Virus record (IMG/VR): IMGVR_UViG_3300032285_001935
Location: 1 to 27,805 of that record
DNA: 27,805 bases
Direction: 5' to 3' (one strand)
DNA from: a virus
Shown here one piece after another: positions 2,153 through 24,471 of this stretch; the stretch's first letter is position 1, and every line of letters begins with the position of its first letter. Made by a program: the position numbers and the translations under genes. Under the pieces are notes generated by a model. That model saw only the letters and a list, made by a program, of their open reading frames with translations, was not told where the DNA came from and made no database searches.

Positions 2153-2455
2153 ATGTCATCAAATTATCAAAACACTAGCCCGTGGTTTAATACAAAGGTA
2201 GTTAATAACTATCTTGATGTAATGGCTATCAGAGCAGTAAGCTCACAACCTGATGATTTTTTATATACAATACAACCACAATATACATATCGTCCTGATT
2301 TATTAGCCTTTGACTTGTACGGGGATCCTAACTTATGGTGGGTATTCACTCAGCGTAACATGGATGTACTACAAGATCCTATTTTTGATTTTGTACCAGG
2401 TACTAAAATTTACATTCCAAAGAACAGCGGCCTTAAAACAGTATTAGGAATATAA
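2153..2455 (+). CDS. 53: gp53-like baseplate wedge protein
   Basis: This short, 100-residue protein carries the core signature of T4 gp53: SPWFNTK near the N-terminus, then YRPDLLAFDLYGDPNLWWVF (about 49-68), then VPGTKIYIP (about 84-92), a LysM-like ending. In T4, gp53 joins adjacent baseplate wedges around the hub. T4 gp53 is about 196 residues, so this is a minimal form containing mainly the conserved core; I see no sign that it is truncated by mutation. The start codon comes one base after the preceding stop (TAATATG) and has no strong Shine-Dalgarno sequence, so translation probably depends on coupling to the gp48-like gene. Confidence 0.82.
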   Translation: MSSNYQNTSPWFNTKVVNNYLDVMAIRAVSSQPDDFLYTIQPQYTYRPDLLAFDLYGDPNLWWVFTQRNMDVLQDPIFDFVPGTKIYIPKNSGLKTVLGI

Positions 2456-4710: not shown

Positions 4711-6087
4711 ATGGCAAGTACACAAAATTTTCAAAGTTCAACAACTCCTGCCGCTCCTGATGCAGGGCCGTTCCTTGCCAGAGTAATTAGTCATCAAGAT
4801 TCTAGCTTTATGGGAACCCTACAGGTTGAACTACTACGTCCAATTGGAAACAGTGCCGGCAGTATAGCTGGAAGTTCTGAATTACGTATAGTAAGCTACC
4901 TGAGTCCTTTTTACGGAGTCACTGGCGCAAGATATATAGGTCAAGATCCTAACGATTATAATCAAACACAAAAAAGTTATGGCATGTGGATGGTACCTCC
5001 GGATGTCGGAACTACAGTAATGGTAATTTTTATCCAAGGCGATGTCAAGCGCGGTTTTTGGATAGGATGCGTGCCGGATGAAAATATGAATTTCATGATA
5101 CCGGGAATTGCCGCTACTGAACAGGTAGTCGAAGGTGGCAACAGAGCTCCAGTTGCAGAATATAACAAAAGAGTAAACGAGTCTACGGCCGACCCAACAA
5201 CTTATACTAAACCGAGACATCCTTTATATAATAAGTTAGTTACTCAGGGTCTCGACCAAGATGACACTAGGGGTATTACAACTAGTAGTAGTCGTAGAGA
5301 AACACCTAGTATGGTTTTTGGTATCAGCACTCCTGGCCCAGTTGATAAACAACCTAATGCTAAAAAAGGTCCTATAGGGCAAGCTGACTCGCAAATTCCT
5401 AATGCATTTGTCAGCCGTTTAGGCGGAGCAACATTTGTAATGGATGACGGTGATTCTGCGTTTCTTCGTAAGACAGATGCCAGTAAAGGTCCTCCGGAAT
5501 ATGTTGCAATAGAACAAAATGAAACTGGCGGAGATGTCACAATACCGCACAATGAACTTGTAAGAATTCGCACAAGAACTGGCCATCAAATACTTTTACA
5601 CAACAGCGAAGATTTGATCTACATTGGTAATGCTAAAGGTACAACTTGGATAGAATTAACTAGCAACGGTAAGATAGATATCTATGCTAAAGATAGTGTA
5701 AGTGTACACAGTGAAAACGATATTAATTTTACTGCGGATAGAGACATTAATTTTACAGCGAAAAGAAATTTTAATCTTAACTCTGCAGGCACTAACAATC
5801 TAACAGCCACTGGTGCAACTAATATCAGAAGTGGCGGAAATCACGTTGAAACTGCGGCGAATATTCATATGAATGGTCCAGCTGCCGCTGTGGCTCCTAA
5901 AGCAAGTAGAATACCGCAACACGAGCCGTGGGCCGGTCACGAACATTTAAATCCAACAGCGTATACACCTGCTAAAACTGCGGCAGTAGCTAATCCAGTC
6001 GCTCCAACAGCGACCTACTGGAAGAAATATACAACAAGTATCGACACTTTTAAGAGGGTACCTCCTCCTGAACAAGGAAACCAATAA
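4711..6087 (+). CDS. 5: gp5-like central spike protein (OB fold plus beta-helix, no lysozyme domain)
   Basis: This 458-residue spike is related to T4 gp5 and VgrG. The N-terminal OB-fold region (about 20-135) includes FLARVISHQDSSFMGTLQVE and MWMVPPDVGTTVMVIFIQGD. A linker leads to IRTRTGHQILLHNSEDLIYI and then a triple-beta-helix needle (about 310-385) with repeats such as DSVSVHSENDINFTADRDIN. The C-terminal part has a His-rich motif, IPQHEPWAGHEHLNP (401-415), that I associate with this spike family and that could bind metal. T4 gp5 carries a lysozyme domain between OB fold and needle; no such catalytic domain is visible here. The gene starts one base after the hub stop, with AAGGA upstream, and its stop overlaps the gp25 start (TAATG). 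Confidence 0.8.
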   Translation: MASTQNFQSSTTPAAPDAGPFLARVISHQDSSFMGTLQVELLRPIGNSAGSIAGSSELRIVSYLSPFYGVTGARYIGQDPNDYNQTQKSYGMWMVPPDVGTTVMVIFIQGDVKRGFWIGCVPDENMNFMIPGIAATEQVVEGGNRAPVAEYNKRVNESTADPTTYTKPRHPLYNKLVTQGLDQDDTRGITTSSSRRETPSMVFGISTPGPVDKQPNAKKGPIGQADSQIPNAFVSRLGGATFVMDDGDSAFLRKTDASKGPPEYVAIEQNETGGDVTIPHNELVRIRTRTGHQILLHNSEDLIYIGNAKGTTWIELTSNGKIDIYAKDSVSVHSENDINFTADRDINFTAKRNFNLNSAGTNNLTATGATNIRSGGNHVETAANIHMNGPAAAVAPKASRIPQHEPWAGHEHLNPTAYTPAKTAAVANPVAPTATYWKKYTTSIDTFKRVPPPEQGNQ

Positions 6088-6530
6088 TGAGCTCAAATGC
6101 TAATTTATACAATAAAATAACTCTTCCGGCAACTAGTCAGCCTGACAACCTTGGTTCTAAGATGTATAAGGGTTTTAGTAGCGTTAATGCATCTACTGAA
6201 AATTATAACCTATTTGATTTTGAATTAATTAAACAGGATATTCTTAATCACTTTAATACAAGACAGGGCGAACGACTAATGAATCCTACCTTTGGTTGTG
6301 TTATCTGGGATTTGTTATTTGAACCGTTAACCGAAGATATTAAGAACATAATACTACAGAATGTTAATACTATCATTAATTATGACCCGAGAGTCAAGGC
6401 AGAAAGTGTAATAGTTACCAGCTACGGACAGGGTATACAAATACAATGTACCTTAAAATTTGTTCCCTATAATATTCAACAAAGTTTGCAATTAAGTTTT
6501 GATCAAGCTAACGGACTATTAGTTGGTTAA
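6087..6530 (+). CDS. 25: gp25-like baseplate wedge protein
   Basis: This 147-residue member of the GPW/gp25 family is one of the best conserved proteins of contractile tails and starts sheath assembly on the wedge. The conserved core runs through FELIKQDILNHFNTRQGERL, then MNPTFGCVIWDLLFEPLTED and NYDPRVKAESVIV. The R-x-G-E-R-x-M-x-P-x-F-G pattern is the family hallmark, including the EPR-loop-like segment. Length is close to T4 gp25 (132). The start overlaps the last base of the spike stop codon and has AAGGA upstream in the spike gene, so the two are probably translationally coupled. It ends the first tightly packed cluster; a 50-base gap with a promoter motif follows. Confidence 0.92.
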   Translation: MSSNANLYNKITLPATSQPDNLGSKMYKGFSSVNASTENYNLFDFELIKQDILNHFNTRQGERLMNPTFGCVIWDLLFEPLTEDIKNIILQNVNTIINYDPRVKAESVIVTSYGQGIQIQCTLKFVPYNIQQSLQLSFDQANGLLVG

Positions 6531-9500: not shown

Positions 9501-10045
9501 CACTGCCATTGCCTCCAAGCTCGGACGAATTGTATAATTTATTAGCACCAAGTCTAAACTTGATTAAATCAATAAGTGATGAAATTGTATATCATCCTGT
9601 GTCATATAAATTGCTGTTTGGTGCATCTGCTGGTAGAGAAGTACAGGCAACATTTAAAGTAACTAAAAATTCTAGTAGTGTTATATCGGATAATGATATT
9701 AAGGCAAGAGTTGTAACGGCACTTAATACATTCTTCGCATTAGATAATTGGGATTTTGGAGATACTTTTTATTTTACAGAACTATCAACTTATGTTATGA
9801 ATCAACTAGCACCAGACATTACTAATTTTGTTATAGTGCCGTTGCAAAGTGATTTATATTTTGGTAGTCTATTCCAGATAGCGTGTCCAAGCAACCAGAT
9901 CTTTATTAATGGTGCAACCGTTGATAATATTGAAATCATTTCAGGCATTACTGGGGCAAACATCAGAACAGTTACTGGTTCTGCATTAAACTCAGTATCG
10001 TCAAATCAAAATGTAACTAGTGCAAATTATGGAGCAACAAATTAA
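6581..10045 (+). CDS. 6: gp6-like baseplate wedge protein (enlarged)
   Basis: This 1154-residue wedge protein is of the T4 gp6/Baseplate-J type, which forms the ring of wedges around the hub and controls baseplate opening. The N-terminal region, with NFPEDFNDYIESSEYLALID and FLGQSIAFRVDLNARENFLE, is strongly gp6-like. MITGEDYNISPL (from 431) and QQVAKVKSVNRTSSG mark the middle domain. The C-terminus has DNWDFGDTFYFTELSTYV (from 1055) and LYFGSLFQIACPSNQIFING, also typical. T4 gp6 has 660 residues; the additional mass is mainly beta-rich sequence inserted at about residues 480-950. GGGAT lies seven bases before the ATG. The stop overlaps the start of the next gene (TAATG), implying coupled translation. 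Confidence 0.88.
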   Translation: MSSTDRQNNLLISEDWKKIYQSFRNADFQSYDFENLRRTMIQYLRTNFPEDFNDYIESSEYLALIDLIAFLGQSIAFRVDLNARENFLELASRRDSVLRLARLISYNAKRNIAANGLLKITTAQTTETVIDSNGRNIANQVISWNDPSNTNWYDQFIKVINAALPQSQQFGSPSASDTIYGIPTSQYRFNATNTNVPIFGFTSSVAGRSMNFEITSTTFKGQNYIYEEAPKVGNKPACVYREDGHGAGSAGTGFFFNFTQGNLQAGQFTVSQPSSNESIDVATANINNSDVWLYTLNQDGIESDLWTQVSSTTGNNIIYNSLNKSIKNIYTVVTRVNDQISLAFSDGTFGNLPLGSFRTYYRVSNGLTYVVNPADIRNISITIPYTSAAGKAESLTLTLGLASSVSNATATEDNVSVKTNAPQTYYTQNRMITGEDYNISPLAASQQVAKVKSVNRTSSGISRYFDLSDPTGKYSSTNLFADDGVIYQDFYTDSGTQFNYVTKTDIQGVIYNRIADLLASPDLANFYYNNFVNFLTASLNIAWYKTTSDSVSSTGYVGDIVDAGAYKVGSYTNTDLKYLTKGSLIKFTAPTGQYFNTNNANALVTGTATVPGASSYIWAEVVSVSGDGTANNTGKLTSGLGPITLNQPIPSGAVLSKLLPQLTTSINSTVITTMIDLIFANKPFGLRYNAAIQTWQIIYEANLNISSAFSLGNQGDTTNTQQDASWLLLFTTNNVFYTVTTRLLRYVFESNKQVRFYFDSTNPIYDSSTGKVISDQINVLSINTQPDATSAFTRDQKWKVVKEYVGVDGYIDNKKIVISFSEDTDNGVIQDPETFLNIVAPTTNALTKYVIQQRYLLNDGQEEYQYISNANNTVVIAPTQSSILTTLTTYPDGQYFYFVDTKVVKKLNLSTAALVPTLDYKVFVGRDNLKFQYTHSADYNSRIDPSASNIIDVYILTKNYDTSFRQWLSNNSLTLPLPPSSDELYNLLAPSLNLIKSISDEIVYHPVSYKLLFGASAGREVQATFKVTKNSSSVISDNDIKARVVTALNTFFALDNWDFGDTFYFTELSTYVMNQLAPDITNFVIVPLQSDLYFGSLFQIACPSNQIFINGATVDNIEIISGITGANIRTVTGSALNSVSSNQNVTSANYGATN

Positions 10046-13000
10046 TGGCCATCAGTAATAATCCAAATGGTACCAACTCGGTTGCTGTAAATTTTCTACC
10101 AAATTTTTATAAAACTGAAGCAAATAAAAAATTCTTACAAGCTACTGTTGATCAAATAGTTCAACCTGGTGCTGTAAAAAAGATTAATGGATTTATTGGT
10201 CGAAAGACTGCTAAAGCCGCAGTAGGCAATGATGTTTATATCGATGCGCCTACAGCTCAACGACAGAATTATCAACTTGAACCTAGTTTTACTGTTAAAG
10301 ATACATTAGGAAATCCTACATTCTTTAAAGATTATCAAGACTATATTAATCAAATAAATGTATTCGGCGGCAATACCGCGAATCATGCAAGACTTAACGA
10401 GCAAGAATTTTATAGCTGGGATCCGCACATTGACTGGGACAAGTTTGTTAATTTTCAAAACTACTATTGGCTTCCATACGGCCCTGATACTATTAAGATA
10501 TTTGGTCAACAAAAAGCGATTACAAGTACATATACTGTTGAACTTCAAACTGAAGGTTCGGATTATCAATACTTGTTTACTCCTAACGGGTTAACTCCAA
10601 ATCCTGTATTAACATTATACAGAGGTCAAACATACATATTTGAAATTACTAGTCCAGGAAATCCTTTCAGCATCAAAGTCAACAGAAACATAGGTAAATT
10701 TGATAGATATACTGACGGTGTGACTGGCGGCGGAGTTGTTGACGGAAAAATTACATTTGAAGTACCAGCAAATGCTCCTAGTATTTTGTATTATCAAAGT
10801 GAAACTGATAGAAACTTAGGCGGTGTCATTAAGATTCTTGATATAAAAGAAGATACTTATATTGACATAGAAGCAGATATATTAGGAAAAAAGACCTATA
10901 CACTAACGAACGGTCTAGCATTATCAAACGGAATGAAAGTATCGTTTGGCGGAAATGTTTCACCGGCAAAATATGCTACCGGAGAATATTATGTTGAAGG
11001 TGTCGGATCTTCTATTAAACTAATTAATAAAAATATTCTTGAAGTTATTACAACATATACTGTAACAGAAGCGGTATATTTTGATAGTATTCCTTTTGAC
11101 ACTCAACCATTTAGTGATTCTTCTAATTTTGCATCAACAAAAGATTACTTAACTATAAGTCGTGCAAGCAGAGATCATAATCCTTGGAGCAGATACAATC
11201 GTTGGTTCCATAAAGATACGATCGAATCTACTGCGGCATATCTAGGTCAAACAATTACATTAGATCAAGCATCTCGTGCAGTTCGTCCTATTATTGAATT
11301 TAATGCAGATTTAAAATTATTTAATTTTGGAACTCTAGCAGTTGATGATGTGGATGTTATTGATACATTTACTAAAGATGTGTTTTCTACTATTGAAGGT
11401 AGTCGAGGATACAATATCGACGGAGTAGCTTTAGCAGACGGTCAACTAATATTATTCACCGCCGATACTGATCGACTAGTAAAAAATAATATATACCGAG
11501 TAACATTTACAAACATATTAGGCTATAGACAGATCCATCTAGAGCCGGTAACACAGCCAACAGTAAACAATGTAGTATTGATTAAACAGGGTAAAAAGAA
11601 TCAAGGCCAGATGTACTGGTATGATGGTACTACATGGAAATTATCTCAACAGAAAACAACTACGAATCAAGCTCCGCTATTTGACATAGTTGATAAAAAT
11701 AAAATTTCATACGGTGATGCTGATACATACCCTGGTACAAACTTTATTGGTACTTCAATTTTTAGTTATAAGATAGCATCAGCCGGTCTTACTGATTCAA
11801 ATCTTGGATTTAAATTAACGTATAAAAATATTAATAATATCGGAGATATTGTTTTTAATTTTACACTAGCAACAGATACTTTTCAGTACAAACTATCTAC
11901 TACTACTGCTTTAAAAACAGTATTAATTAAAGTAGGATACCTAGTAACACAGGATTATGCTGGCAATTTAGTTTATCAAAACGGATGGCAAAAATCTTCA
12001 GTTACTACAGCTCAAGCAGGTGTTCGAGTTTATAAAAATAGTAACCTTGTAAATAATTTTCCGATTGATATATTTGATAATGTCGATAACCTCTCAGACT
12101 TAACAGTAAGAGTATATGTAAACGGTATCCGTCTAGATACTAATAAGTGGACATTAGTTGATACACCGGTATTTAAACAAGTTAAACTAACAACTGACAT
12201 TGCAAAATCTGATGTATTAACTATTAAAACATTTGCAAAACAGCCAATTAACAGTAACGGATATTATGAAATTCCTGTTAATCTACAAAATAATCCTATG
12301 AATGATGAGATAGGAGATTTTACTCTTGGCGAAGTCATTGACCATGTTAGTTCTATAGTTGAAAATTTAATAACATTCTCTGGAATATATCCTGGCGCAA
12401 GTAATTTAAGAGACCTTGGAAACATAACTCCATATGGTACTAAATTTGTACAACATAGTGGTCCAGCAAGTTTATCTATCTATCATACTACTAGTGAAAT
12501 TAATAATATTGTTCGCGCGATTGAAAAAAATCGCGAAGATTACAGTAACTTTAAGAAAAATTTTGTTAGTATTGCAACACAACTAGGAGTTGATTCAAAT
12601 CCTGTAGATCAAGTTGACATGATTTTAAATCGTATCAATAAAGATAAGCCAACAACGTTCTCTTATTACTTTAGCGATATGGTTCCATACGGATCATTTG
12701 TAGAGACTGTGTTAACCGTAGTTGATTATAGAATTAAAACCTATCCGTTAACGACCGTATTTAATTTAGACAAGTTATCAAATCAAGCAGTGGGCGTTTA
12801 CCTTAATGGTTTTGATGCACAAACAGGCACGCAATTACTGTATGGTAAAGACTATACATTTGATCAACAAGGCTTTATTGTACTAACTGATACTGTACCC
12901 TTACACAATAATGATACCATCACTATTAGAGAATATGATAATACTGATGGATCATTCGTACCAGAAACTCCGACTAAACTAGGCATATGGCCAAAATATG

Positions 13001-16000
13001 AACCTAAGATTTATTTAGATACAAGTTTTGTTACGCCTACTATGATGATACAAGGTCATGATGGTAGTCAAGTAGCGGCTTACAATGACTATCGAGATGC
13101 TATTTTATTAGAATTAGAAAAACGCATTTATAATAATATTAAAGTTGAATACAATACAAGCATTTATGATATTGCCGATACTATTCCTAGCTATAATAGA
13201 ACTAATGCATATAGTATTGATGAATTTAATAATGTATTAGCACCAAGTTTTTATAAATGGGCAACTTTAGTTGATAAAGATTTTACCAAACCCTTAAACT
13301 ACGATCTTAATAACAGTTTCACTTATAACTATGCAGGACACTCTGCACCTGATGGTACTACTGTGCCAGGCTATTGGAGAGGAATATACAGATGGTTATT
13401 AGATACTGATCGTCCTCATATTTGTCCTTGGGAAATGTTAGGGTTTACTGAGCAACCTACATGGTGGACAAGTTTGTATGGTCCGGCACCATACACTAGA
13501 GATAATCGAGTTATGTGGAAAGACATTGCTGATGGTGTAGTTCGTCAGCCAGGAGTTCCTGCAATAACCTTAACAAAATATGTTAAGCCTTTCTTACTTG
13601 ATCATATTCCGGTTGACGACAATGGTAAACTTCTTAGTCCGTTGATTTCGGGCCTTGCAAGAGGAACTGTTACACAACAAACTGACAGTGATTTTGTATT
13701 CGGCGATGTTGGACCTGTAGAGTCTGCTTGGAGAAAGAGTAGTCACTTTCCTTTCAGTGTTATCTTAACATCAATGTTGTTGACTCCGGCTAAAACTTTT
13801 GGTCTATTGTTAGATAGATCAAGAATCGTACGTAACCTAGCAGGTCAGCTAGTTTATTCAGATACTAATTTAAGAATTAAGCCATCGGCTATTTTACTTC
13901 CTAACGTTACTGCTAGTGAGAATAGAGTTCAAACCGCAGGTATTATCAATTATCTTATCAATTATATTCTAAGTGATAATTTAAAATCTTATACAGCATA
14001 CCAGTATGATTTAACAAATCTAGCACCACAGATCAGCTATCGTGTCGGCGGTTTCACTAGCAAACAAAAATTTAATTTATTACTAGATTCGAGAACATAT
14101 GCATCGTCGAATGTAGTGTTTATACCACAAGATGATTATAATATTATTCTTAACAGTTCAAGCCCTGTTAAGAAAATAGTATACAGCGGAGTAATTGTTA
14201 CCAAGGTAACTGCTGGATACGAAGTTAAAGGATATAGCCAAACACAGCCATTCTTTAAATATTATCAATATACACAATCTGGTGTAACAATTAATGTTGG
14301 CGGTATATCTGAAAAATTTAACACATGGACTACATTGCACGATTATGCAGTAGGTACTATTGTTAAACTAGCTCAACAATATTATCGAGTATTAGTTAAT
14401 CATACCACTACTACAGTATTTGAACCTAAATATTATCAAGCTCTTAGTAGTCTACCTATTACTGGCGGACGTGATGCTACTTTTAGAAAGCTATGGGATA
14501 GAACTAAAGAACTAGTAGCACCTTACGGAACAACATTTAATAGTGTTCAAGAAGTTGTTGATTTCTTATTAGGCTACGGCGAGTATCTAAAAGATCAAGG
14601 TTTTGTATTTGACGAATTTAATAAAAATCTTGGAACTGTAACTAATTGGGAAACTAGCGCCAAAGAATTTATGTTCTGGACTACACAGAATTGGAGTTCA
14701 GGTGCAGACAAGTGGACCGATTGGAGACCAAATGTCGCTGTGCCATTTAATTTAATTGTAAAGTATAATGGGGATTATTATCGTTCTATAAGAAATGTAG
14801 AAGCTAGTTCAACCTTCGATCCAACAAATTTTATTAAATTAGATAATTTAAGTACAGTTGGAAGTGGAGTTATTAGTCTTAGCCCTAGTGCTGATAAGAT
14901 TACATTTAATACTACCCTAGCAGTTGTAGATGATATTGGTAATCAATTCAACGGGTATGAAATTTTTAAAGTAGACGGTACACCTTTAGAAAAATCGTAT
15001 ATTAATTCTTTTAGAAGTGACAATGCAGTCAGCTATAGTTCTACGACTAATGATGGCATATACGGCGCAAGTTTTTATCTAATACAAAAAGAACAAGTAG
15101 TATTGTTAAACAATTCAACTATGTTTAATGATACTATCTATAGTCCTGCGAGCGGATATAGACAAGAACGAATCACAGTAGCTGGTTATGTAAGTGTTGG
15201 ATGGACTGGTGGCTTTGATGCTCCTGGGTTTGTATTTGACGAAGCTGTAATTACAGAATGGCAACCGTGGAAAGATTATAACATTGGTGAAGTTGTAAAA
15301 TACGGTCAATATTATTTGCAAGCAGATCCTAAGGGTAATTTTGTACCAGGTGCAGAAATGCTAGATCAAACTCAATGGTTAAAGTTATCTAGTAAACCAT
15401 CTTCTAAACTTATTCCTAACTGGACCTATAAGGCTGCACAATTTACTGACTTCTATAGTTTAGATAGTGATAACTTTGATGCAACACAACAACAGGTTGC
15501 CCAACATTTAATCGGATATCAAAAGCGTTCATACCTTGATAATATTATCAAAGATGATGTAAGTGAATTCAAGTTCTATCAAGGAATGATTCGTGAAAAA
15601 GGTACACAAAACGTTCTTAACAAATTGTTTGATGTACTAAGTGCTGACGGAAAAGAAAGTTTAACATTCAAAGAAGAGTGGGCTATTCGATTAGGTCAAT
15701 ATGGTGCTAGTGGAGCATTTGAAAATATTGAATTTGTATTAGATGAAGCACAATTTAAAATTAATCCGCAAGGTTTTTATCTAGTTAGTCAACCAGACTC
15801 TAATGCACTTGACTATATTATTAGACAAACACCAAACAATGTTTATTTAAAACCTCTAGGATATTCTAGTACACCTTGGCCTGTATTAGAAAATTATCAA
15901 CCTTATCTTCGTAGTGCAGGTTATGTTAGAGCCTCTGAAGTATTTGTCTCATTAAAAACTATATCTGATATTGTAAATTATGATGTAACTTATTTTAATA

Positions 16001-19000
16001 ACGGATCTTATGTATCGTGTGCGTTTGAAGGCACTAGTTGGAATGTATATAGATTTACAGATGTTAATTTTAAAGTTACTACTATTACATACGACAACAA
16101 CGTATTAACTATCACTCTCCGTGATATAGTTACATTAAAAGTTGATACTTGGATCGGTATATCACAGACTACAAACATTAATGGTTTTTATAAAATAACT
16201 AGTATAACTTTAAATTCGTTTACAGTAAGTGCATCGCCTACTAGTTGGTCAACATTTACTGAACAATCAAAAGTAATCATATATGCATTATTAAGCCAGC
16301 GCACTGCTTCTATCAATAACATTGATGATATTATTCCTCGAAAACTCACTGCTGGTGAACGTTTATGGACCGATGATAGTGGCGATGGCACCTGGGCGAC
16401 ATGGACTTATAATCCTGTATACACGCAGACAAAATTCTTTAACTCTACACCAGCTACTGGATTAAATTATGGTAGAGCTGTAGCAATCAATGCGACAGGT
16501 AACATCCTTGGTGTTTCTACTGCTAACGGTGATATTGTAACTTGGGATAAGGCAAGTGTTAAAACTCCTTGGATCCAACGACAACTGGTAACTAAGCCCT
16601 ATGTTACTAATCAAGTAACACTGGCTAACTTATATGCAACTGTAATGGCATTTAGTAATGACGGCCTTTGGTTAGCCACTGGCAGTCCAGGAGTTGGATA
16701 TGCATACACAAGATATAAAGGCGTATACTCTAGTTCAACTTATTATGTAGTTGGCGACATTGTAGCAACAGCTTACCCTACATCACAAGAAACAGACTTC
16801 TTGGATAGAGTGAGCCAATTGACTGATCAATTTAGTATAAATTCTAATGTAGCAGGATACCCATGGGGTGTAACATTGCCACTTGGTCAAAATACATATG
16901 ATCAACTGATTCTATTGTCTCCGGTAACAACTGCATCGATACCTAACTTTACTAGTTTAGTAACACTTGCTTATTCAGTAAAAACAGCATACCTTACCTG
17001 GCAATCAGTAAGAGCTAATGCATATTTTTATAGAGCACTAGCAAATACACAAAATCATGCACCTGCTACCGGTCAGCAGTCAAATACCTATTGGGAAAGT
17101 ATACCGTATATTCCAGTTGATGATGCAGGAACAAACAGCGGACTAGTAGCACAGGGTGTTGTGCATCTTTATAAGAAAGACCCGGACAATATTTACACGT
17201 TAGTGGATTCTTTTGTTAGCCCAAACCCTACAGCTAGCGAACTATTTGGTTCAAGTATAAAATTCTTTACTTCAACGACAAATGGATTTACAGATCAACT
17301 TATAATAGGAGCACCGGGTACTAGTAATGTATATAATTTTGCTTTTGGTTCTGTTAAAGAAACATCAACAGCATTTAATCCGGTTGGAACAGTCGGGGGA
17401 ATTATTGTTGTAACCTCTACAGCAGGCATCTTACCAGGTATGACAGTTAATGGTACTGGATTTACCAGCGGCCAAACTGTATCAGCTGTTATTAATTCTA
17501 AGACTTTACAACTAAGCGGAAGTCCTGACAGCACTCCGAATGGTGTTTTAACATTCAGTGTTACTGGTTGGTTCTTTACTGACTATCAAAAATCTACAAT
17601 ATATACTGTTCCAACTAGTAGAAATTTTGGAGCTAGCGTAGTAGTCAGCGGAGACTATAAATCTGCATACGCATTATCAGCAGTTAACGGAATAAATCCA
17701 GGTACAGTCGTAATAGTATACAATAATACCTATCAAAAAATAACGGGTACCGGTATAGCATTTGGTTCATCAGTAGCACTTTCAAATGATGGCACTTATC
17801 TAGTAATATCTGATCCTTTAGCAAGTGGCACAAGTGTTAACCAAGGATCAGTTTATATCTATAAACTAGTTAGTAACACGTATTCATTATATCAAACTAT
17901 TGTAAATCATAATCCGGAAAATTCTGGATTCTTTGGTAGCAAAGTTGCGTTCATGACAGACAACACTCTAGTAGTTTATAGCTCAAGTGGTGATACTGTT
18001 AATGAAATGACGTTTGACCAAACTCAAACATCTTTTGATAAAAAGAGTACTACATTTATTACTAGACATATTGATAGTGGTAAGGTAGACATCTACGACA
18101 ACTATTCAACTAAGTGGGTCTTTAGCGAATCGTTATCAACTACTAATACACTAAATGATGGCTACGGTACTGGCTTCGCAGTAGGATTAAATCACATTAT
18201 TGTAGGTGCTCCTACTACACTTGATCAAACATTATCTTCAGGTGCGGTATATGATTATTACAAACTTCCTGGTAAATTTACCTGGACAAAAACACATACT
18301 GAAATCGTAAAACCAGATGTATCAAAAATTAAAAGAGCATTCTTATATAATAGAACTACTGGCGAGCTAATCAAACACTTAGATGTTATTGATCCGTTGC
18401 AGGGCAAAATAGCAGGACCAGCTAGCGAAGAGATTACATTTAGTTCTTTCTATGATCCAGCAGAATATACTATAGGCGATGATACTGTAACTATAAATGC
18501 AGACAAGCCATGGACCACTAAACAGGTAGGAAAATTATGGTGGGATCTAAGAACAACCAAGTTCATTGATCCGTATGACGGAGACGTTGTTTACAGAACT
18601 AGCAATTGGAATACCTTAGCAACTGGTGCATCTGTCGATATCTATGAGTGGGTATCAAGTGCATACAAACCAGCTGACTGGGACAACCTAGCTGATACCG
18701 AAGCAGGCCTTGCTAAAAATATCAGTGGCAAGAGTTTATATGGTAATACTTCATATAGTGTCAGCCAGACATACGATACAATAAGCCAGACATATAGAAA
18801 TGTTTATTATTTCTGGGTTAAAAATAAAACTATCGTTCCAAATGTACCTGGTAGATATATCTCAGCATCAGAAGTTGCATCGTTAATTTCAAATCCAAGA
18901 GGTCAGGGTTATGAATACTTGTCGTTGACTGGAATTAATTCATTCAATCTTACAAATGCCAAATCAATGTTGACCGCAGATAGTGTTGTACTATCAGTTG

Positions 19001-22000
19001 AGTATTGGACTACTGATAAGACCGATCGAAATGTACATAGTCATTGGAAAATAATCAGTGATGAAGAAACTACAGTAATACCTACAACTATAGAACAAAA
19101 ATGGTTTGATAGTTTGTGTGGTAGAGATTCTAATGGGTTGACTGTTCCTGATCTAAAACAACCGATAAAATTAAGATACGGAATTGAAAACAGACCGCGT
19201 CAAAGTATGTTTGTTAATCGATTTGAAGCACTTAAACAGTTTATAGAACAAGTTAATATTACTCTATCTGAAAATCAAATTGTACAATCAAAGAATCTAA
19301 CTAATTTAGAAAAATATGATTCATATCCAGACTATGTAACACTAGTTGATGGAACAAAGATTCTTCCTAGCGGACTTTATGATACTACTATCGATACTGA
19401 TGCAGAATTGTCATATGTCAGCATCGGAGCATTTAAACGACCCGACCTTACACCTATAATAGTTGATGGTAAGATCACAGGAATAACAATTAATTCTGCC
19501 GGTCTTGGATATTTGTATCCGCCATTTATTAGTATAGTTGGTAGTGGCCGCGGAGCAGTTGTTCGTGCAACTATTAATACATTAGGTCAAATAACAGGCG
19601 CAACTATTTCTTCCGCTGGCGAAGGATATGATTCAAATACAGTAGCAATCATTAGAGATTATTCGGTACTAGTTTACAGCGATTCACAGTCTAACGGTAA
19701 TTGGGCCATTTATTCTTATGATCCGACCGGAAAAGTATGGTCTAGAATTAAATCTAAGACATATGATGTAAGAGATTATTGGGAATATACTGACTGGTAT
19801 GCAACTGGATATAATCAATTTTCAGCCGCTGACTACGGAGTTGATACATTTGATCAATTAAATTATATTAATCCTTTGATTGGTAAACTAGTGTTAGTAC
19901 GTACTAGCTCAACAAATGGCTGGCAATTATTATATAGATATGCAACATCTTCTAGTATTGATTGGACACAGAGTTATCGAGTAGTAGGTGTACAAAACGG
20001 CACTATAAAATTTAAATCAAGTTTTTATCAGTTCTCTAACACTAGCATCGGCTATGACGATTCAACGTTCGACGGCGCAGTATTCGACGGTGAAGCAGTA
20101 AATGAACTAAGAATCGTATTAACTGCATTAAAGAAAGACATTTTAATAGATGAACTTAAACAAAAGTATATAGATTTATTCTTTACTAGTGTACGATATG
20201 CACTAAGCGAACAAGTGTACATTGATTGGATTTTTAAAACAAGTCTTGTTAAGGCTCAGCACAACATTGGCGAACTAGGACAACCAGTCAATTATCAAAT
20301 TGACAATTTATCTAATTTTCAAGAATATGTAAATGAAGTAAAACCATATCGTACAAAGATTCGCGAGTATGTTAGTGCTTATTCTAAAATAGATGATTCT
20401 ATAACAATGGTAAGTGACTTTGATCTTCCAGTAGTGTATGATAATAATAAAATAGTTAATATCAATACATGGATAACAAACGGAAAAATTCAAGCAGACA
20501 ATGCCGCAATACAAACGTATCCATGGAAGAACTGGTTAGATAATGTAGGATTTATCGTAACTGAACTAAGACTTGTCAACGGCGGCGAAGGATATGTAAA
20601 TGAGCCAGTGGTAAAAATTACCAGCGATTCTGGATCTGGTGCGACCGCAAGAGCATTCTTTGCTAACGGAAAAATTAATAGAATAGTACTCCTAACAAAT
20701 GGTAGTAAGTATTTGTCAGCACCAACAGTTACCTTAGACGGTGGACTGTCAGCGACTGGAACAGCCGCTAAAGTTGTAGCAGTCATCGGTAATAGTGTTG
20801 AAGCTGATATGCCTCACGGTGTTGTTCGTTCATCGCTGATAAAAATTAAATTTGATAGACTAACTCAATCTTACTATATTACTCAACTACAGCAAACTGA
20901 AACATTTGTCGGCAGCGGTTCTAAATTACAATTTAATTTAACATGGGCTCCTGATATTAATATCGGTAATAGTACTGTAACAATAACATCTCCAGGACAA
21001 ACTAGTGAAATTTTAGTATTAAGAGATTTATATACTCTAGCAGTTAAAAAATCAACTACAAAAGGATATACTAGCTATTCTGGAACGATTACATTTGCAA
21101 CAGCACCTGCTAACTTGGCTGTTATTAAGGTAACTTATATTAAAGATTGGGATTTATTAAATGCCGCAGATAGAACACAGTTCTATTACGATCCACAAAC
21201 TGGACAAATCGGTAATGATTTGTCACAACTAATGTCCGGCATTGATTACGGCGGCGTAACAATTAATGGTTTAGGATTTGACGTTGCCGCAGGTTGGGGA
21301 GCGTTGCCATACTATACAGACAAGTGGGATACATTTGATGCTACATATAGCGATTATATTGTAACTGTATCTGCAGGCACACATTCTTTCACATTGCCAT
21401 ACACTCCATCAGCTAGTACAATTTTAAATGTCTATTATGTACGTACAACTACTTTATCATATACTAGCAATGGAATAGATACAAAGTATTCTTATACTCC
21501 ATCGAATAGAACACCAGTAGTTACAGCGAGTACCACACAGACATCGCTAGCACCAGTAACATTATCGGGAACTGCTGGAACAAGATTATTAAGAGTAAAT
21601 TCTACAAGTAAAATTCGTCTCGGTGATACTGTTACTTGTACCGCAGTTGCAGCCTTTTCTTTGAATACAAAAGTTACAGCTATCAATAGCGGTACAAATA
21701 CAGTTACATTGAGCCAGATTCTATATCTGGATGTGCCAACGAGCTCAAGCATTGTCTTTACTCGAACACTAGCTCAACCAACTAATTTTTCAATATTCTC
21801 TAACGGTAATGTAACACTAGCAACACCATTATCAAGTGGTACTCAGTTGAACATTATAACAGAGTCTGAACCAATAAGACTTGACGATCCTAACTATGGA
21901 ACAGTAGACCAAACTAATACTAATGCAATTATGTCATCAATAACTGCAAGCGGATCTACTGCAACATTTACAATACCAAATACATTTACTGTACTTGCAG

Positions 22001-24471
22001 GTGACAAATTTATTTGGAGACAAAGTACCAGTGACGGTTCTATCAAACCTCAAGACACTGACTATGATACTGCACTCAATGGCGGCAATCTTGCTTATAG
22101 TACTGCTACTGGATTATCAGCAGATGATATACTAGTCGACGGTGATGGATTAATTACTCCTACTACTAGCCCTGCTCCTGAAGAAGTGGTTCCTGGACAA
22201 GTAGTAGATGCTGTTGCTATTAAAGTATTTGATCAACCAATAACTGGAAGTGCAAATATTAAAGTTGACAATTATCTTGCTGACGGATCTAATAGTGCGT
22301 TTGTGATCACACAAACACCATCGAGCCCTCGAGCAATAGTTGTTAAAATTGGTTCAACTATTCAAAAGTATACCACAGACTACACAGTTGATTATAAAAA
22401 TAAACTAGTAAACTTTACATCTGCACCAGCGGCAAACAGTACGGTATCAATATTCAGTCTTGGATTTAGTGGTGATAATATTTTAGACATTGACTATTTT
22501 GTTGCCGATGGATCTACATTAGAATTTATTACTAAAGCACCGTGGTTAGACTCAGTAACTAGTTTAGTATATCTTAATGGTCTTGCAATAAGTCCAAAAT
22601 TGTTTAGAACAGATAGTACATATGTAAGTGCAAATAGAATTGGCCTACAATTTAGTACCCCGCCGGCAATTGGATCTATTATTAACTATATTATTGTTAG
22701 CGGAAATCAACAGACATTTGCTATTACTAAAACTGAACTAGTTCCAACTAACGGTGCTACAACTTATGCACTACAATACCCTATAGGTGATCGCTTACCC
22801 CTTGAAACTAATTTTATTGTTCGAGTTGATCAGTCAATTTTAACTGGACCTAACAACAGTTATTTTACAATCGCAGATAATAATTTAGATTATACAATTG
22901 ATCCTACTACATTCTTACCTTATAGTGTGTCAATTGGTGATATAAAAATACTAGCTAACGGAAAACTATTAACTATTGGTTCAGATTATACAATTAATCT
23001 TAGTGGGATAACGATTTCGATTAATCAAACAGTCTATAACAAATATGTTGGTAAACAACTAATTGTTAGTATTGTTTCGGATCAACAGTACACTTATAAT
23101 TCAACAACAGGTACAATTACATTTAAACAAGCCTATGATAATACCAAGGTTGTCGAAGTTATTAGTTCATACAAACATGATGTTTTAGATATTCAACGAA
23201 CTGATATTAATGTTTCGTCAAGTCTAGCATTGACTCCGGATACTGTAAAATATTTCTATTATAAATCAATCACTGGCGGAATATTATCATTGAACCGTTC
23301 GATTATAAATGACAGCTATGTATGGGTTGTTAAGAACGGAACACTGTTAACACCAGCGATTGATTATAAATTGAATGATGATCGAGTGTCTATCACCCTA
23401 GCATCTGGTACAGTTGTAACAGATAAAGTTACACTAATCACCTATGGTAGCAATGTATTAACAACTGGAATCGCATATATGCAGTTTAAAGATATGCTAA
23501 ATCGCGTACACTTTAAACGCTTAAATCGCAATAAAGAAACATATCTTGTAAAAGCTCTACACTACAATGATACTACAATTACAGTTGCAGATGCAAGTAG
23601 TTTTGACTTGCCTAATACTGCTAATAATAAACCAGGAATTATTGAAATTCGAGGAGAACGCATCGAGTTCTTTGCAATTACTGGAAACGTATTAAGCAAA
23701 CTGCGTAGAGGTACATTGGGAACAGGAACACCTCCTGTACATAATTCTGGTTCTTGGGTTCAAGAAATTGGTGCTAGTGAAACAATACCATATGTTGAGA
23801 ATACTATTACTGAACAAATTATCAGCGATGGTACCAACACTGTTAATTTAAATATTATAACACCAACTAAAGCATCAACAACATGGTCATATGCTACTGG
23901 TTATACTTCAAGCATACCTGCAGGCTACGGACAAAGCAATGATATAGATGTGTTTGTAGGCGGCTACGATACTAGTTCTGTATGGACGCCAAATACATCT
24001 TATAGTGTAGGAATTATTGTTACTATCGGTAGTTACACATATCAATGTAAGACTGCTCATACTAGTAGTTTAGTCTTTACTTCTGATACTGCTAAATGGA
24101 CCTTCTTTATTGGCAATATTAGATTAAAGAAAAAACCTTACATGGTGCATAATGTTAATCAAGCACCTGATAGCCCAGAAGGTGATATACAATTAGATGC
24201 TGATTTTGCAGTTAATGGATCTTCAAAACAGGTTAGATTAACTAATAAACTAGCAATAGGTACACAAGTAACCGTGGTAAAACGCCAAGGCGTTGCTTGG
24301 GATAGTACAGTAAATATATTAAACGACTCTACTGACGTTGCTAAGTTCTTAAAAGCTGTTCCCGGAACATGGTATAAGGACTTTAAACAAATAAGTACAA
24401 TTACTACTGCTACAACTTTCGATAACGATACATCGTTTGATGGCACATCAATAACATTTGACCAAGGATAA
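10045..24471 (+). CDS. giant multidomain virion protein (4808 residues), baseplate periphery, gp7 position
   Basis: This single uninterrupted frame directly follows and overlaps gp6, where T4 has gp7. The N-terminus (FLPNFYKTEANKKFLQATVD, EFYSWDPHIDWDKFVNFQNY) resembles giant structural proteins of aquatic T4-like phages. Recognisable parts are: cupredoxin-like (about 185-268); a conserved block ASRDHNPWSRYNRWFHKDTI (about 373-392); CBM5/12-like segments near W1428, W1739 and W4647; an FG-GAP-type propeller (about 2135-2770); a conserved LWWDLRTTKFIDPYDGDVVY block near 2832; Gly-Tyr repeats (about 3142-3205 and 3501-3585); repeated beta-sandwich-like units (about 3640-4480); and a conserved C-terminal block, IIEIRGERIEFFAITG. 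I count about five cysteines and see no signal peptide or membrane segment. It is probably structural and host-facing. It is not the tape measure, which is a helical protein encoded beside the tube genes. Direct homology to gp7 is unproven. Confidence 0.75.
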   Translation: MAISNNPNGTNSVAVNFLPNFYKTEANKKFLQATVDQIVQPGAVKKINGFIGRKTAKAAVGNDVYIDAPTAQRQNYQLEPSFTVKDTLGNPTFFKDYQDYINQINVFGGNTANHARLNEQEFYSWDPHIDWDKFVNFQNYYWLPYGPDTIKIFGQQKAITSTYTVELQTEGSDYQYLFTPNGLTPNPVLTLYRGQTYIFEITSPGNPFSIKVNRNIGKFDRYTDGVTGGGVVDGKITFEVPANAPSILYYQSETDRNLGGVIKILDIKEDTYIDIEADILGKKTYTLTNGLALSNGMKVSFGGNVSPAKYATGEYYVEGVGSSIKLINKNILEVITTYTVTEAVYFDSIPFDTQPFSDSSNFASTKDYLTISRASRDHNPWSRYNRWFHKDTIESTAAYLGQTITLDQASRAVRPIIEFNADLKLFNFGTLAVDDVDVIDTFTKDVFSTIEGSRGYNIDGVALADGQLILFTADTDRLVKNNIYRVTFTNILGYRQIHLEPVTQPTVNNVVLIKQGKKNQGQMYWYDGTTWKLSQQKTTTNQAPLFDIVDKNKISYGDADTYPGTNFIGTSIFSYKIASAGLTDSNLGFKLTYKNINNIGDIVFNFTLATDTFQYKLSTTTALKTVLIKVGYLVTQDYAGNLVYQNGWQKSSVTTAQAGVRVYKNSNLVNNFPIDIFDNVDNLSDLTVRVYVNGIRLDTNKWTLVDTPVFKQVKLTTDIAKSDVLTIKTFAKQPINSNGYYEIPVNLQNNPMNDEIGDFTLGEVIDHVSSIVENLITFSGIYPGASNLRDLGNITPYGTKFVQHSGPASLSIYHTTSEINNIVRAIEKNREDYSNFKKNFVSIATQLGVDSNPVDQVDMILNRINKDKPTTFSYYFSDMVPYGSFVETVLTVVDYRIKTYPLTTVFNLDKLSNQAVGVYLNGFDAQTGTQLLYGKDYTFDQQGFIVLTDTVPLHNNDTITIREYDNTDGSFVPETPTKLGIWPKYEPKIYLDTSFVTPTMMIQGHDGSQVAAYNDYRDAILLELEKRIYNNIKVEYNTSIYDIADTIPSYNRTNAYSIDEFNNVLAPSFYKWATLVDKDFTKPLNYDLNNSFTYNYAGHSAPDGTTVPGYWRGIYRWLLDTDRPHICPWEMLGFTEQPTWWTSLYGPAPYTRDNRVMWKDIADGVVRQPGVPAITLTKYVKPFLLDHIPVDDNGKLLSPLISGLARGTVTQQTDSDFVFGDVGPVESAWRKSSHFPFSVILTSMLLTPAKTFGLLLDRSRIVRNLAGQLVYSDTNLRIKPSAILLPNVTASENRVQTAGIINYLINYILSDNLKSYTAYQYDLTNLAPQISYRVGGFTSKQKFNLLLDSRTYASSNVVFIPQDDYNIILNSSSPVKKIVYSGVIVTKVTAGYEVKGYSQTQPFFKYYQYTQSGVTINVGGISEKFNTWTTLHDYAVGTIVKLAQQYYRVLVNHTTTTVFEPKYYQALSSLPITGGRDATFRKLWDRTKELVAPYGTTFNSVQEVVDFLLGYGEYLKDQGFVFDEFNKNLGTVTNWETSAKEFMFWTTQNWSSGADKWTDWRPNVAVPFNLIVKYNGDYYRSIRNVEASSTFDPTNFIKLDNLSTVGSGVISLSPSADKITFNTTLAVVDDIGNQFNGYEIFKVDGTPLEKSYINSFRSDNAVSYSSTTNDGIYGASFYLIQKEQVVLLNNSTMFNDTIYSPASGYRQERITVAGYVSVGWTGGFDAPGFVFDEAVITEWQPWKDYNIGEVVKYGQYYLQADPKGNFVPGAEMLDQTQWLKLSSKPSSKLIPNWTYKAAQFTDFYSLDSDNFDATQQQVAQHLIGYQKRSYLDNIIKDDVSEFKFYQGMIREKGTQNVLNKLFDVLSADGKESLTFKEEWAIRLGQYGASGAFENIEFVLDEAQFKINPQGFYLVSQPDSNALDYIIRQTPNNVYLKPLGYSSTPWPVLENYQPYLRSAGYVRASEVFVSLKTISDIVNYDVTYFNNGSYVSCAFEGTSWNVYRFTDVNFKVTTITYDNNVLTITLRDIVTLKVDTWIGISQTTNINGFYKITSITLNSFTVSASPTSWSTFTEQSKVIIYALLSQRTASINNIDDIIPRKLTAGERLWTDDSGDGTWATWTYNPVYTQTKFFNSTPATGLNYGRAVAINATGNILGVSTANGDIVTWDKASVKTPWIQRQLVTKPYVTNQVTLANLYATVMAFSNDGLWLATGSPGVGYAYTRYKGVYSSSTYYVVGDIVATAYPTSQETDFLDRVSQLTDQFSINSNVAGYPWGVTLPLGQNTYDQLILLSPVTTASIPNFTSLVTLAYSVKTAYLTWQSVRANAYFYRALANTQNHAPATGQQSNTYWESIPYIPVDDAGTNSGLVAQGVVHLYKKDPDNIYTLVDSFVSPNPTASELFGSSIKFFTSTTNGFTDQLIIGAPGTSNVYNFAFGSVKETSTAFNPVGTVGGIIVVTSTAGILPGMTVNGTGFTSGQTVSAVINSKTLQLSGSPDSTPNGVLTFSVTGWFFTDYQKSTIYTVPTSRNFGASVVVSGDYKSAYALSAVNGINPGTVVIVYNNTYQKITGTGIAFGSSVALSNDGTYLVISDPLASGTSVNQGSVYIYKLVSNTYSLYQTIVNHNPENSGFFGSKVAFMTDNTLVVYSSSGDTVNEMTFDQTQTSFDKKSTTFITRHIDSGKVDIYDNYSTKWVFSESLSTTNTLNDGYGTGFAVGLNHIIVGAPTTLDQTLSSGAVYDYYKLPGKFTWTKTHTEIVKPDVSKIKRAFLYNRTTGELIKHLDVIDPLQGKIAGPASEEITFSSFYDPAEYTIGDDTVTINADKPWTTKQVGKLWWDLRTTKFIDPYDGDVVYRTSNWNTLATGASVDIYEWVSSAYKPADWDNLADTEAGLAKNISGKSLYGNTSYSVSQTYDTISQTYRNVYYFWVKNKTIVPNVPGRYISASEVASLISNPRGQGYEYLSLTGINSFNLTNAKSMLTADSVVLSVEYWTTDKTDRNVHSHWKIISDEETTVIPTTIEQKWFDSLCGRDSNGLTVPDLKQPIKLRYGIENRPRQSMFVNRFEALKQFIEQVNITLSENQIVQSKNLTNLEKYDSYPDYVTLVDGTKILPSGLYDTTIDTDAELSYVSIGAFKRPDLTPIIVDGKITGITINSAGLGYLYPPFISIVGSGRGAVVRATINTLGQITGATISSAGEGYDSNTVAIIRDYSVLVYSDSQSNGNWAIYSYDPTGKVWSRIKSKTYDVRDYWEYTDWYATGYNQFSAADYGVDTFDQLNYINPLIGKLVLVRTSSTNGWQLLYRYATSSSIDWTQSYRVVGVQNGTIKFKSSFYQFSNTSIGYDDSTFDGAVFDGEAVNELRIVLTALKKDILIDELKQKYIDLFFTSVRYALSEQVYIDWIFKTSLVKAQHNIGELGQPVNYQIDNLSNFQEYVNEVKPYRTKIREYVSAYSKIDDSITMVSDFDLPVVYDNNKIVNINTWITNGKIQADNAAIQTYPWKNWLDNVGFIVTELRLVNGGEGYVNEPVVKITSDSGSGATARAFFANGKINRIVLLTNGSKYLSAPTVTLDGGLSATGTAAKVVAVIGNSVEADMPHGVVRSSLIKIKFDRLTQSYYITQLQQTETFVGSGSKLQFNLTWAPDINIGNSTVTITSPGQTSEILVLRDLYTLAVKKSTTKGYTSYSGTITFATAPANLAVIKVTYIKDWDLLNAADRTQFYYDPQTGQIGNDLSQLMSGIDYGGVTINGLGFDVAAGWGALPYYTDKWDTFDATYSDYIVTVSAGTHSFTLPYTPSASTILNVYYVRTTTLSYTSNGIDTKYSYTPSNRTPVVTASTTQTSLAPVTLSGTAGTRLLRVNSTSKIRLGDTVTCTAVAAFSLNTKVTAINSGTNTVTLSQILYLDVPTSSSIVFTRTLAQPTNFSIFSNGNVTLATPLSSGTQLNIITESEPIRLDDPNYGTVDQTNTNAIMSSITASGSTATFTIPNTFTVLAGDKFIWRQSTSDGSIKPQDTDYDTALNGGNLAYSTATGLSADDILVDGDGLITPTTSPAPEEVVPGQVVDAVAIKVFDQPITGSANIKVDNYLADGSNSAFVITQTPSSPRAIVVKIGSTIQKYTTDYTVDYKNKLVNFTSAPAANSTVSIFSLGFSGDNILDIDYFVADGSTLEFITKAPWLDSVTSLVYLNGLAISPKLFRTDSTYVSANRIGLQFSTPPAIGSIINYIIVSGNQQTFAITKTELVPTNGATTYALQYPIGDRLPLETNFIVRVDQSILTGPNNSYFTIADNNLDYTIDPTTFLPYSVSIGDIKILANGKLLTIGSDYTINLSGITISINQTVYNKYVGKQLIVSIVSDQQYTYNSTTGTITFKQAYDNTKVVEVISSYKHDVLDIQRTDINVSSSLALTPDTVKYFYYKSITGGILSLNRSIINDSYVWVVKNGTLLTPAIDYKLNDDRVSITLASGTVVTDKVTLITYGSNVLTTGIAYMQFKDMLNRVHFKRLNRNKETYLVKALHYNDTTITVADASSFDLPNTANNKPGIIEIRGERIEFFAITGNVLSKLRRGTLGTGTPPVHNSGSWVQEIGASETIPYVENTITEQIISDGTNTVNLNIITPTKASTTWSYATGYTSSIPAGYGQSNDIDVFVGGYDTSSVWTPNTSYSVGIIVTIGSYTYQCKTAHTSSLVFTSDTAKWTFFIGNIRLKKKPYMVHNVNQAPDSPEGDIQLDADFAVNGSSKQVRLTNKLAIGTQVTVVKRQGVAWDSTVNILNDSTDVAKFLKAVPGTWYKDFKQISTITTATTFDNDTSFDGTSITFDQG
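10597..10848 (+). other. cupredoxin-like domain with lost copper ligands (giant protein residues 185-268)
   Basis: LTLYRGQTYIFEI (from 189), NPFSIK (206-211), a D-G-V-T-G-G-G turn, DGKITFEVPANAPSILYYQ (233-251) and GGVIKI follow the strand order of a cupredoxin-like module seen in many marine proteins. There the pattern is usually HPF ... ITFxVPxxAPxxLYYxCxxHxxMGG. Here the His is Asn206, the Cys is Ser252 and the second His/Met region is D-R-N-L. The fold is inferred from the pattern, and copper binding is not expected. Confidence 0.55.
14320..14448 (+). other. CBM5/12-like segment 1 (giant protein residues about 1426-1468)
   Basis: W1428 begins the pattern W-x6-Y-x-x-G-x-x-V followed by QQYYRVLVNHTTTTVFEPKY. 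This resembles small chitin/cellulose-binding modules of the CBM5/12 type (W...Y..G..V...G..Y.....H.S....W). The segment is short and the assignment rests on pattern alone. Confidence 0.4.
15253..15399 (+). other. CBM5/12-like segment 2 (giant protein residues about 1737-1785)
   Basis: WQPWKDYNIGEVVKYGQYYL begins at W1739 and is followed by FVPGAEMLDQTQWLKL, the same aromatic and glycine spacing as segment 1 with a closing Trp. A partial relative, VPFNLIVKYNGDYYRSIRNV, lies between them near 14740-14800. Confidence 0.42.
16447..18354 (+). repeat. FG-GAP-type beta-propeller repeats in the giant protein (residues about 2135-2770)
   Basis: Repeats of the form F-G-x-S-V-x-x-S-x-D-G-x-x-L-x-x-x-x-P followed by G-x-V-Y-x-Y occur at F2401 (FGSSIKFF, LIIGAPG), F2528 (FGASVVVSGD), F2573 (FGSSVALSNDGTYLVISDP, then GSVYIYKL), F2630 (FGSKVAF) and G2706 (GYGTGFAV, IIVGAP, SGAVYDYYKL). 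Weaker copies are at Y2142 (YGRAVAINATGNILGV) and F2203 (FSNDGLWLATGSP). This is the sequence style of the FG-GAP_2 family; six or seven blades would make one closed propeller. Its role could be carbohydrate or protein contact at the particle surface. Confidence 0.65.
19468..19659 (+). repeat. Gly-Tyr repeat pair A (giant protein residues about 3142-3205)
   Basis: Two consecutive units of the form G-x-I-T-x-x-x-I-x-S-A-G-x-G-Y are visible: GKITGITINSAGLGYLYPPF and GQITGATISSAGEGYDSNT, separated by SIVGSGRGAVVRATINTL. These short beta-rich units recur in phage adhesins and virion proteins. Their function is unknown. Confidence 0.6.
20545..20799 (+). repeat. Gly-Tyr repeat pair B (giant protein residues about 3501-3585)
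   Basis: The same unit type as pair A occurs again: ELRLVNGGEGYVNEPVVKIT, a GSGATARAFF turn, then GKINRIVLLTNGSKYLSAPT. The second unit has Ser-Lys-Tyr instead of Gly-Gly-Tyr. The copies lie about 360 residues after pair A, with an unrelated segment between. Confidence 0.58.
20962..23484 (+). repeat. array of beta-sandwich-like repeats in the giant protein (residues about 3640-4480)
   Basis: Recurring units have the outline V-x-V-x-x-N/D-G-x-x-L ... D-Y-T-V ... I-x-F/I ... P-x-x-x-x-x-I-x-V. Clear examples are VVKIGSTIQKYTTDYTVDYK (about 4099), LVYLNGLAISPKLF (about 4174), DIKILANGKLLTIGSDYTIN (about 4299) and VVKNGTLLTPAIDYKLNDD (about 4427). Related single units lie earlier, VRVYVNGIRLDTNKW (about 690) and VGVYLNGFDAQTG (about 916). 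They probably form a rod or arm of stacked domains. The boundaries are approximate. Confidence 0.5.
23977..24114 (+). other. CBM5/12-like segment 3 (giant protein residues about 4645-4690)
   Basis: This is the clearest of the CBM5/12-like segments: WTPNTSYSVGIIVTIGSYTY from W4647, then QCKTAHTSSLVFTSDTAKW. It keeps the opening Trp, the Tyr, Gly and Val spacing, G-S-Y-x-Y-x-C, the H-T-S motif and the closing Trp. A carbohydrate-binding or structural role near the C-terminus is inferred. Confidence 0.52.

Follow-up and report, generated by a model that had tools for sequence, protein, structure and literature searches.

Very large gp7 proteins are already known from cyanophages. Genes annotated as gp7, or located in the gp7 slot, encode 5195 residues in P-SSM2, 4749 in S-T4, 3884 in S-CAM9, 4024 in S-B05, 3274 in Syn1, 1454 in S-CRM01, 1915 in S-B68, 3032 in S-CAM1, and 4458 in MED4-213, and the 7312-residue "baseplate wedge initiator" of P-SSM4 is the largest bacterial-virus protein in a surveyed set (PMC8553790). 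Cyanophage gp7 and T4 gp7 have a common core motif (hhalign 94.4%, T4 residues 726–813). Another family of giant proteins, PHROG 10938, is annotated in RaK2, PA5oct, and Atu_ph07 only as "virion structural protein" or "hypothetical". Its members are encoded next to gp6 in PA5oct (gp355, 3857 aa, marked ESI-MS/MS in the record), Atu_ph07 (gp180, 4449 aa), RaK2 (gp465, 3326 aa), Phosso (4555 aa), and 121Q (582, 3323 aa), whereas the gp6 match of SCTP-2 (homologue 140, 3807 aa) lies elsewhere in the genome. For CBB_236, apparently the gene beside gp6, 21 peptides were reported (PMC5259590).

The window studied here is the whole of a virus fragment of 27,805 nucleotides (IMG/VR record IMGVR_UViG_3300032285_001935); the source record consists of this fragment only, and what is said below about the remainder of the genome comes from relatives. 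As the sequence-only reading had described, half of the window (51.9%) is taken by a single open reading frame, which begins with ATG, contains no internal stop, and overlaps the gp6 gene by 1 nt in a TAATG junction. At the GC content of the window, 4808 open codons would occur by chance with a probability of ~10^-149. The differences from the relative L014 fall mainly in third codon positions (472, 238, and 1657 in positions one, two, and three), and 1476 of the 2016 changed codons are synonymous. This pattern of substitutions relative to close relatives indicates that the giant ORF is coding, and the ORF is unbroken after gp6 in dozens of independent contigs.

The other genes of the window encode a gp55-type late sigma factor (minus strand), a 340-aa structural protein, gp53, a 750-aa structural protein, a gp5-type hub, gp25, gp6, an 833-aa fibre protein, and a 233-aa ORF (Table 1). 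The wedge-region gene order is 53-5-25-6-giant. The hub has OB and DUF2345-type matches and no lysozyme family match at 458 aa, whereas the hub of RaK2 has 886 aa and is described as a tail lysozyme. The 833-aa ORF starts with MTQQIINIGAAANDGKGDSLRSAGIKVNANFAELY, which matches gp10 residues 1–34 (hhalign 95.3%); besides this gp10-type N-terminal anchor, the ORF has a stretch of CBM5/12-like sequence and matches several fibre-type PHROGs. Two homologues of the 833-aa ORF were found among the loci of relatives, few of which extend so far downstream.

Table 1. Genes and protein segments of the window. Residue numbers of segments refer to the giant protein.
Feature	Position	Strand	Evidence
gp53-like wedge protein	2153..2455	+	PF11246 above cut-off; phrog_7145
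gp5-like hub protein, OB domain, 458 aa	4711..6087	+	PF04717 above cut-off; phrog_13211
gp25-like wedge protein	6087..6530	+	PF04965 E 2.1e-13
gp6-like baseplate wedge protein, 1154 aa	6581..10045	+	phrog_10646 E 1.5e-298; phrog_219; hhalign 95.6% to P-SSM2 gp6
Giant virion protein, 4808 aa, PHROG 10938; proposed gp7-type baseplate wedge protein	10045..24471	+	phrog_10938 1102 bits; homologues
Optional beta domain, residues 165–290	10537..10914	+	tblastn to P-SSM2/S-B43/Bellamy; presence table
Constant core block 1, residues 300–1420, in all lineages including XacN1/RAS14	10942..14304	+	family comparison
CBM5/12 (chitin-binding type 3)-like module 1, residues 1425–1470	14317..14454	+	VIA Z 7.0, rmsd 1.2, 45 aa to 3wx7; motif
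CBM5/12-like module 2, residues 1555–1602	14707..14850	+	VIA Z 7.4, rmsd 1.5, 45 aa to Milano baseplate chain 8fqc_P1
CBM5/12-like module 3, residues 1733–1782	15241..15390	+	VIA Z 5.1 to A-1(L) tail fibre 8kec_a; Pfam CBM_5_12 E 0.034, below cut-off
Constant helical segment with KGT motif, residues 1795–1925	15427..15819	+	family alignment, near-invariant K-G-T; AF2 helices
gp7-core motif candidate MIREKGTQNVLNKLFDVLSADGKE, residues 1848–1871	15586..15657	+	best slice versus joint profile of T4 and cyanophage gp7 cores, 30–33%
Optional FG-GAP (integrin-alpha-like) beta-propeller region, residues 2135–2760	16447..18324	+	PF14312 E 1.2e-9 at residues 2572–2606; repeats; presence table; segment lengths
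Constant core block 2, residues 2765–3100	18337..19344	+	hhalign 97–98% to XacN1/RAS14; RaK2 copy well predicted here by AF2
GxGY...P.V.I repeat, residues 3150–3215	19492..19689	+	hhalign 86% to P-SSM2 gp7 1116–1195, 67% to P-SSM2 gp8
Helical block, residues 3300–3450, kept in all lineages except XacN1/RAS14	19942..20394	+	family comparison
T7 tail-fibre N-terminal-like stretch in fibre-type beta repeats, residues 4076–4159	22270..22521	+	PF03906 E 1.5e-4 to 4.4e-4, below curated cut-off
Beta domain common to giant and cyanophage gp7 N-terminus, residues 4497–4575	23533..23769	+	hhalign 96.6% to cyanophage gp7 residues 70–165
CBM5/12-like module 4, residues 4647–4676	23983..24072	+	PF02839 27.2 bits on slice (cut-off 26.2), 22.1 bits on whole protein
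833-aa fibre/tail protein, residues 2–35 match T4 gp10 N-terminus	24477..26978	+	hhalign; phrog_677, phrog_958

The giant protein matches phrog_10938 in five stretches and is a member of a family of giant tail-baseplate proteins that is widespread and already on record. Homologues from the main lineages cover 53–72% of it in tblastn comparisons, and the more distant proteins encoded after gp6 in XacN1 (3313 aa) and RAS14 (3138 aa) are colinear with it, with hhalign values of 97–99% in three blocks. In a scan of viral contigs, 303 stretches were confirmed to encode relatives, and 80 of them were retained; later scans yielded additional ones, some of them on marine MAG contigs. Giants occupy the slot adjacent to gp6 in more than 60 distinct IMG/VR and MAG loci and range from ~3.0 to >5.2 kaa, the largest partial copies exceeding 5,200 aa (L139); the size of 4808 residues is thus typical of the family, not exceptional. 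Two of the contigs with a giant, L145 (PBPT01000016.1, 335 kb) and L146 (PBPT01000082.1, 153 kb), are assigned to a Neomarinimicrobiota MAG, with similar cases in L147–L154; L145 and L146 are probably jumbo-phage sequences that were mis-binned into, or present in the sample of, a Neomarinimicrobiota MAG. A radical SAM gene cluster is located shortly downstream of the giant in Atu_ph07 (L002 33592–40330) and Phosso (L005 32251–39994).

The giant family is built of a constant core and optional inserts, namely chitin-binding-like modules, an FG-GAP propeller, and fibre-type beta repeats. Residues 300–1420, 1480–1570, 1640–1735, 1795–1925, and 2765–3100 are kept in all lineages examined, and the other segments are variable; for the far lineages, presence was read from a MAFFT alignment and is approximate. 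The beta domain near the N-terminus also occurs in P-SSM2 and other cyanophage fibre-type proteins and is absent from RaK2-like relatives. The propeller is absent from the RaK2, PA5oct, and XacN1 lineages and from L074, L082, and L143. An AF2 model of residues 985–2060 has a mean pLDDT of 82, and comparison of the model with known structures by VIA identified a chitin-binding type 3 fold in three core modules (Z 5.1–7.4, 45–48 aa). Pfam matches to CBM5/12 are near or below the cut-off in three places of the giant. The modules are thus predicted to have the chitin-binding type 3 fold, and they may contact glycans. The GxGY...P.V.I repeat recurs at residue 3514 of the giant and is also present in gp7 and gp8 of P-SSM2 (L098). 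This module can mislead annotation, and the phrog_438 matches in Atu_ph07 and G001 may stem from such a region. Together with the T7-tail-fibre-like stretch and the beta domain found in cyanophage gp7, these modules bear out in broad terms the earlier description of the protein as a mosaic of at least five domain types.

Adjacency or overlap of gp6 and gp7 like that of gp6 and the giant ORF is found in T4, P-SSM2, and other cyanophages, and the order in the window corresponds to gp25-gp6-gp7. Direct comparison of sequences did not connect the giant to T4 wedge proteins. Neither the whole protein nor its 400-aa slices matched the T4 gp7 family in hhalign, and a slice comparison of the kind proposed in the sequence-only reading, with T4 gp7, gp8, and gp10 among the targets, returned no direct match: the 16 templates comprised T4 proteins, the gp7 family, and one reversed control, and no 400-aa slice exceeded 5.2% with any of them. 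A whole-protein phmmer search of the PDB returned nothing relevant, and the KGT segments of 33 family members, scanned with PHROG and Pfam, matched phrog_10938 only. The sensitivity of hhalign can be gauged from the accepted gp6 homologue, which reaches 15% with T4 gp6 and 95.6% with P-SSM2 gp6.

When a combined profile of the T4 and cyanophage gp7 cores was used, the best slice of the giant was always one with FYQGMIREKGTQNVLNKLF (aligned residues 1848–1871). This slice scored 15–33% in hhalign and ranked first with four master sequences, while the next slices were near 1%. In the 1326 control comparisons, of 16 column-shuffled profiles and one reversed profile with 78 slices, the maximum was 7.2%. 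When the family was divided into seven disjoint subsets, the motif ranked first in four of them (marine 46%, PA5oct-like 29%, freshwater 5%, XacN1 1%), and it did not rank first with the Atu/Phosso, RaK2-like, or SCTP-2 profiles alone. The residues K, G, and T are nearly invariant in alignments of the giant family. The motif, whose match spans only 24 columns at a modest probability, provides moderate support for a gp7-type core within the giant. The sequence-only reading had placed a wedge anchor at the N-terminus of the protein; the gp7 slot and the weak but specific core motif agree with an anchor, whereas the motif is internal, at residue ~1850. The "baseplate wedge initiator" of Bellamy was discarded as evidence for gp7, as it is a 481-aa fibre-like gene with only the optional beta domain in common with the giant.

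Structure prediction was less informative for the putative gp7-type segment than for the modules. AlphaFold confidence in the region of the KGT motif is ~63 in the model of the window protein and ~48 in that of the RaK2 core copy, which lacks the insertions and has a mean pLDDT of 71, with high values in block 2. Foldseek and VIA searches with the two AlphaFold models singled out only the chitin-binding-like modules; single domains filled the lists, and no gp7 chain was among the matches listed, the gp7-like segment being of low confidence in the models. E1-enzyme folds were nearly tied in one fold search (Z ~7, 75–83 aa) and were interpreted as a common arrangement of beta-strands. A search of BFVD returned mainly the giant's own family.

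The distribution of the other wedge proteins was evaluated in genomes of relatives. With searches of limited sensitivity that recovered T4 itself, phrog_964 (gp7) matched nothing in PA5oct, Atu_ph07, RaK2, 121Q, XacN1, and the 372-kb G001, and phrog_977 (gp8) and phrog_963 (gp11) matched nothing convincing in G001, G002, PA5oct, Atu_ph07, RaK2, and XacN1. These results are suggestive only of an absence of T4-type gp7, gp8, and gp11 from the genomes of relatives. In PA5oct, the gene that lies downstream of the giant encodes a gp10 C-terminal domain, and gp10 and gp9 N-termini are present on large fibre ORFs of the 372-kb relatives G001 and G002. Further giant ORFs with gp9/gp10-type N-termini are found in G001 and G002 (G001:C1:223339 and G002:C1:195251, open frames of 4043 and 3131 aa); they are apparently giant baseplate-attached fibres. 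The earlier statement that no separate gp7–gp11 genes are seen between gp6 and the fibre therefore stands in part: gp7, gp8, and gp11 were not detected in relatives, whereas a gp10-type N-terminus is located on the ORF that follows the giant.

The product of the giant ORF is probably the equivalent of the gp7 wedge protein in a jumbo T4-like phage, with interchangeable outer modules. This reading is based on the slot after gp6, the homology of giant cyanophage gp7 to T4 gp7, and the match of the KGT motif, together with the lack of phrog_964 matches in relatives and the virion association of PA5oct gp355 and CBB_236. It is unlikely, although conceivable, that the giant has no relation to gp7 and, while occupying the gp7 slot, is an adhesin or fibre attached to the baseplate, the true gp7 having escaped recognition, for example as the 750-aa ORF at 2457–4709. 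Most of the recognisable domains of the giant are indeed of fibre or adhesin type, and a whole-protein match to gp7 is lacking. However, every lineage retains the constant core and, within it, the gp7-type KGT motif, and the 750-aa and 340-aa upstream ORFs gave no gp7 signal (≤0.5%) by the hhalign method that was used on the giant, and no gp8 signal, for which reason both were dropped as alternative gp7 or gp8 candidates.

A fusion that absorbed gp7 together with gp8-like or gp11-like functions, or both, into one chain would explain why phrog_977 and phrog_963 were not convincingly found in the six genomes searched, and the GxGY repeat is common to the giant and P-SSM2 gp8. We nevertheless consider such a fusion quite improbable. 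Slices of the giant match none of T4 gp8, gp9, gp10, gp11, and gp12 (all ≤5% in hhalign, a comparison of limited sensitivity in which the accepted gp6 scores 15%), so that a combination of gp8, gp9, or gp11 with gp7 is unsupported. Moreover, the gp8-type repeat also occurs in P-SSM2 gp7, indicating a promiscuous module, the gp10-type N-terminus is on a separate ORF, and P-SSM2 has a giant gp7 in addition to a separate gp8. That the ORF encodes a precursor from which separate wedge and fibre proteins are released by cleavage as the virion assembles is suggested by its size and modular layout only, and is very improbable: the RaK2, PA5oct, and XacN1 relatives lack whole modules while their gene structure is unchanged, and cleavage is not known for T4 gp7 or cyanophage gp7.

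If the giant is the gp7 equivalent, it would be a gp7 protein enlarged about fivefold by modules that were added before, inside, and after the conserved core. The KGT segment (residues ~1795–1925) and the constant blocks (300–1735 and 2765–3100) would dock onto the gp6 dimer of every one of the six wedges, in the manner of T4 gp7, and the gp10-type N-terminus of the next ORF may in turn dock onto the giant. The chitin-binding-like modules, the propeller, and the C-terminal fibre-type repeats would project from the edge of the baseplate, where they may contact surface glycans or brace fibres. We infer the docking onto gp6, the copy number, and the surface contact from these comparisons. The long sensing arm that had been proposed is consistent with the presence of modules of host-touching type, that is, the chitin-binding-like modules, the propeller, and the fibre repeats.

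What is new here is a specific, testable assignment of gp7 to a family listed as "virion structural protein". If true, the assignment completes the gp6-gp7-gp25-gp53 wedge set of this jumbo lineage and links the family to the very large gp7 proteins of cyanophages, which themselves rank with the largest proteins that bacterial viruses encode. It also singles out 24 residues to look for directly in any cryo-EM map of a baseplate of this type. A broader and more doubtful idea is that the gp7 scaffold of jumbo myoviruses is an exchangeable carrier with a fixed gp6-docking core, on which lineages swap modules of the glycan-binding and propeller types; recognition of the host might then fall to the wedge scaffold itself as well as to its fibres, and the scaffold might replace periphery proteins of the gp8 and gp11 types.

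The giant of the window resembles T4 gp7 (1032 aa) in gene position and in the junction with gp6, and the T4 helical motif DFYSTKGIEASYKFLFKVLY resembles FYQGMIREKGTQNVLNKLF. In contrast, T4 gp7 has no direct sequence match to the giant, is about one-fifth of its size, and no modules of sugar-binding type were found in it. The giant gp7 proteins of the cyanophages P-SSM2, S-T4, and P-SSM4 are similar to the window protein in their slot after gp6, order of size, KGT-type motif, beta domain, and GxGY repeats; however, the gp7 core is N-terminal in cyanophages (~residue 200) and its candidate counterpart is at ~1850 in the window giant, and the sequences are otherwise not alignable. The PHROG 10938 giants of PA5oct, Atu_ph07, RaK2, 121Q, and SCTP-2 are colinear with the window protein, are encoded directly after gp6 except in SCTP-2, and have 3.3–4.4 kaa. 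Relative to these isolates, with which it has ~25–35% sequence identity, the window giant has extra chitin-binding-like modules, the FG-GAP propeller, and longer C-terminal repeats.
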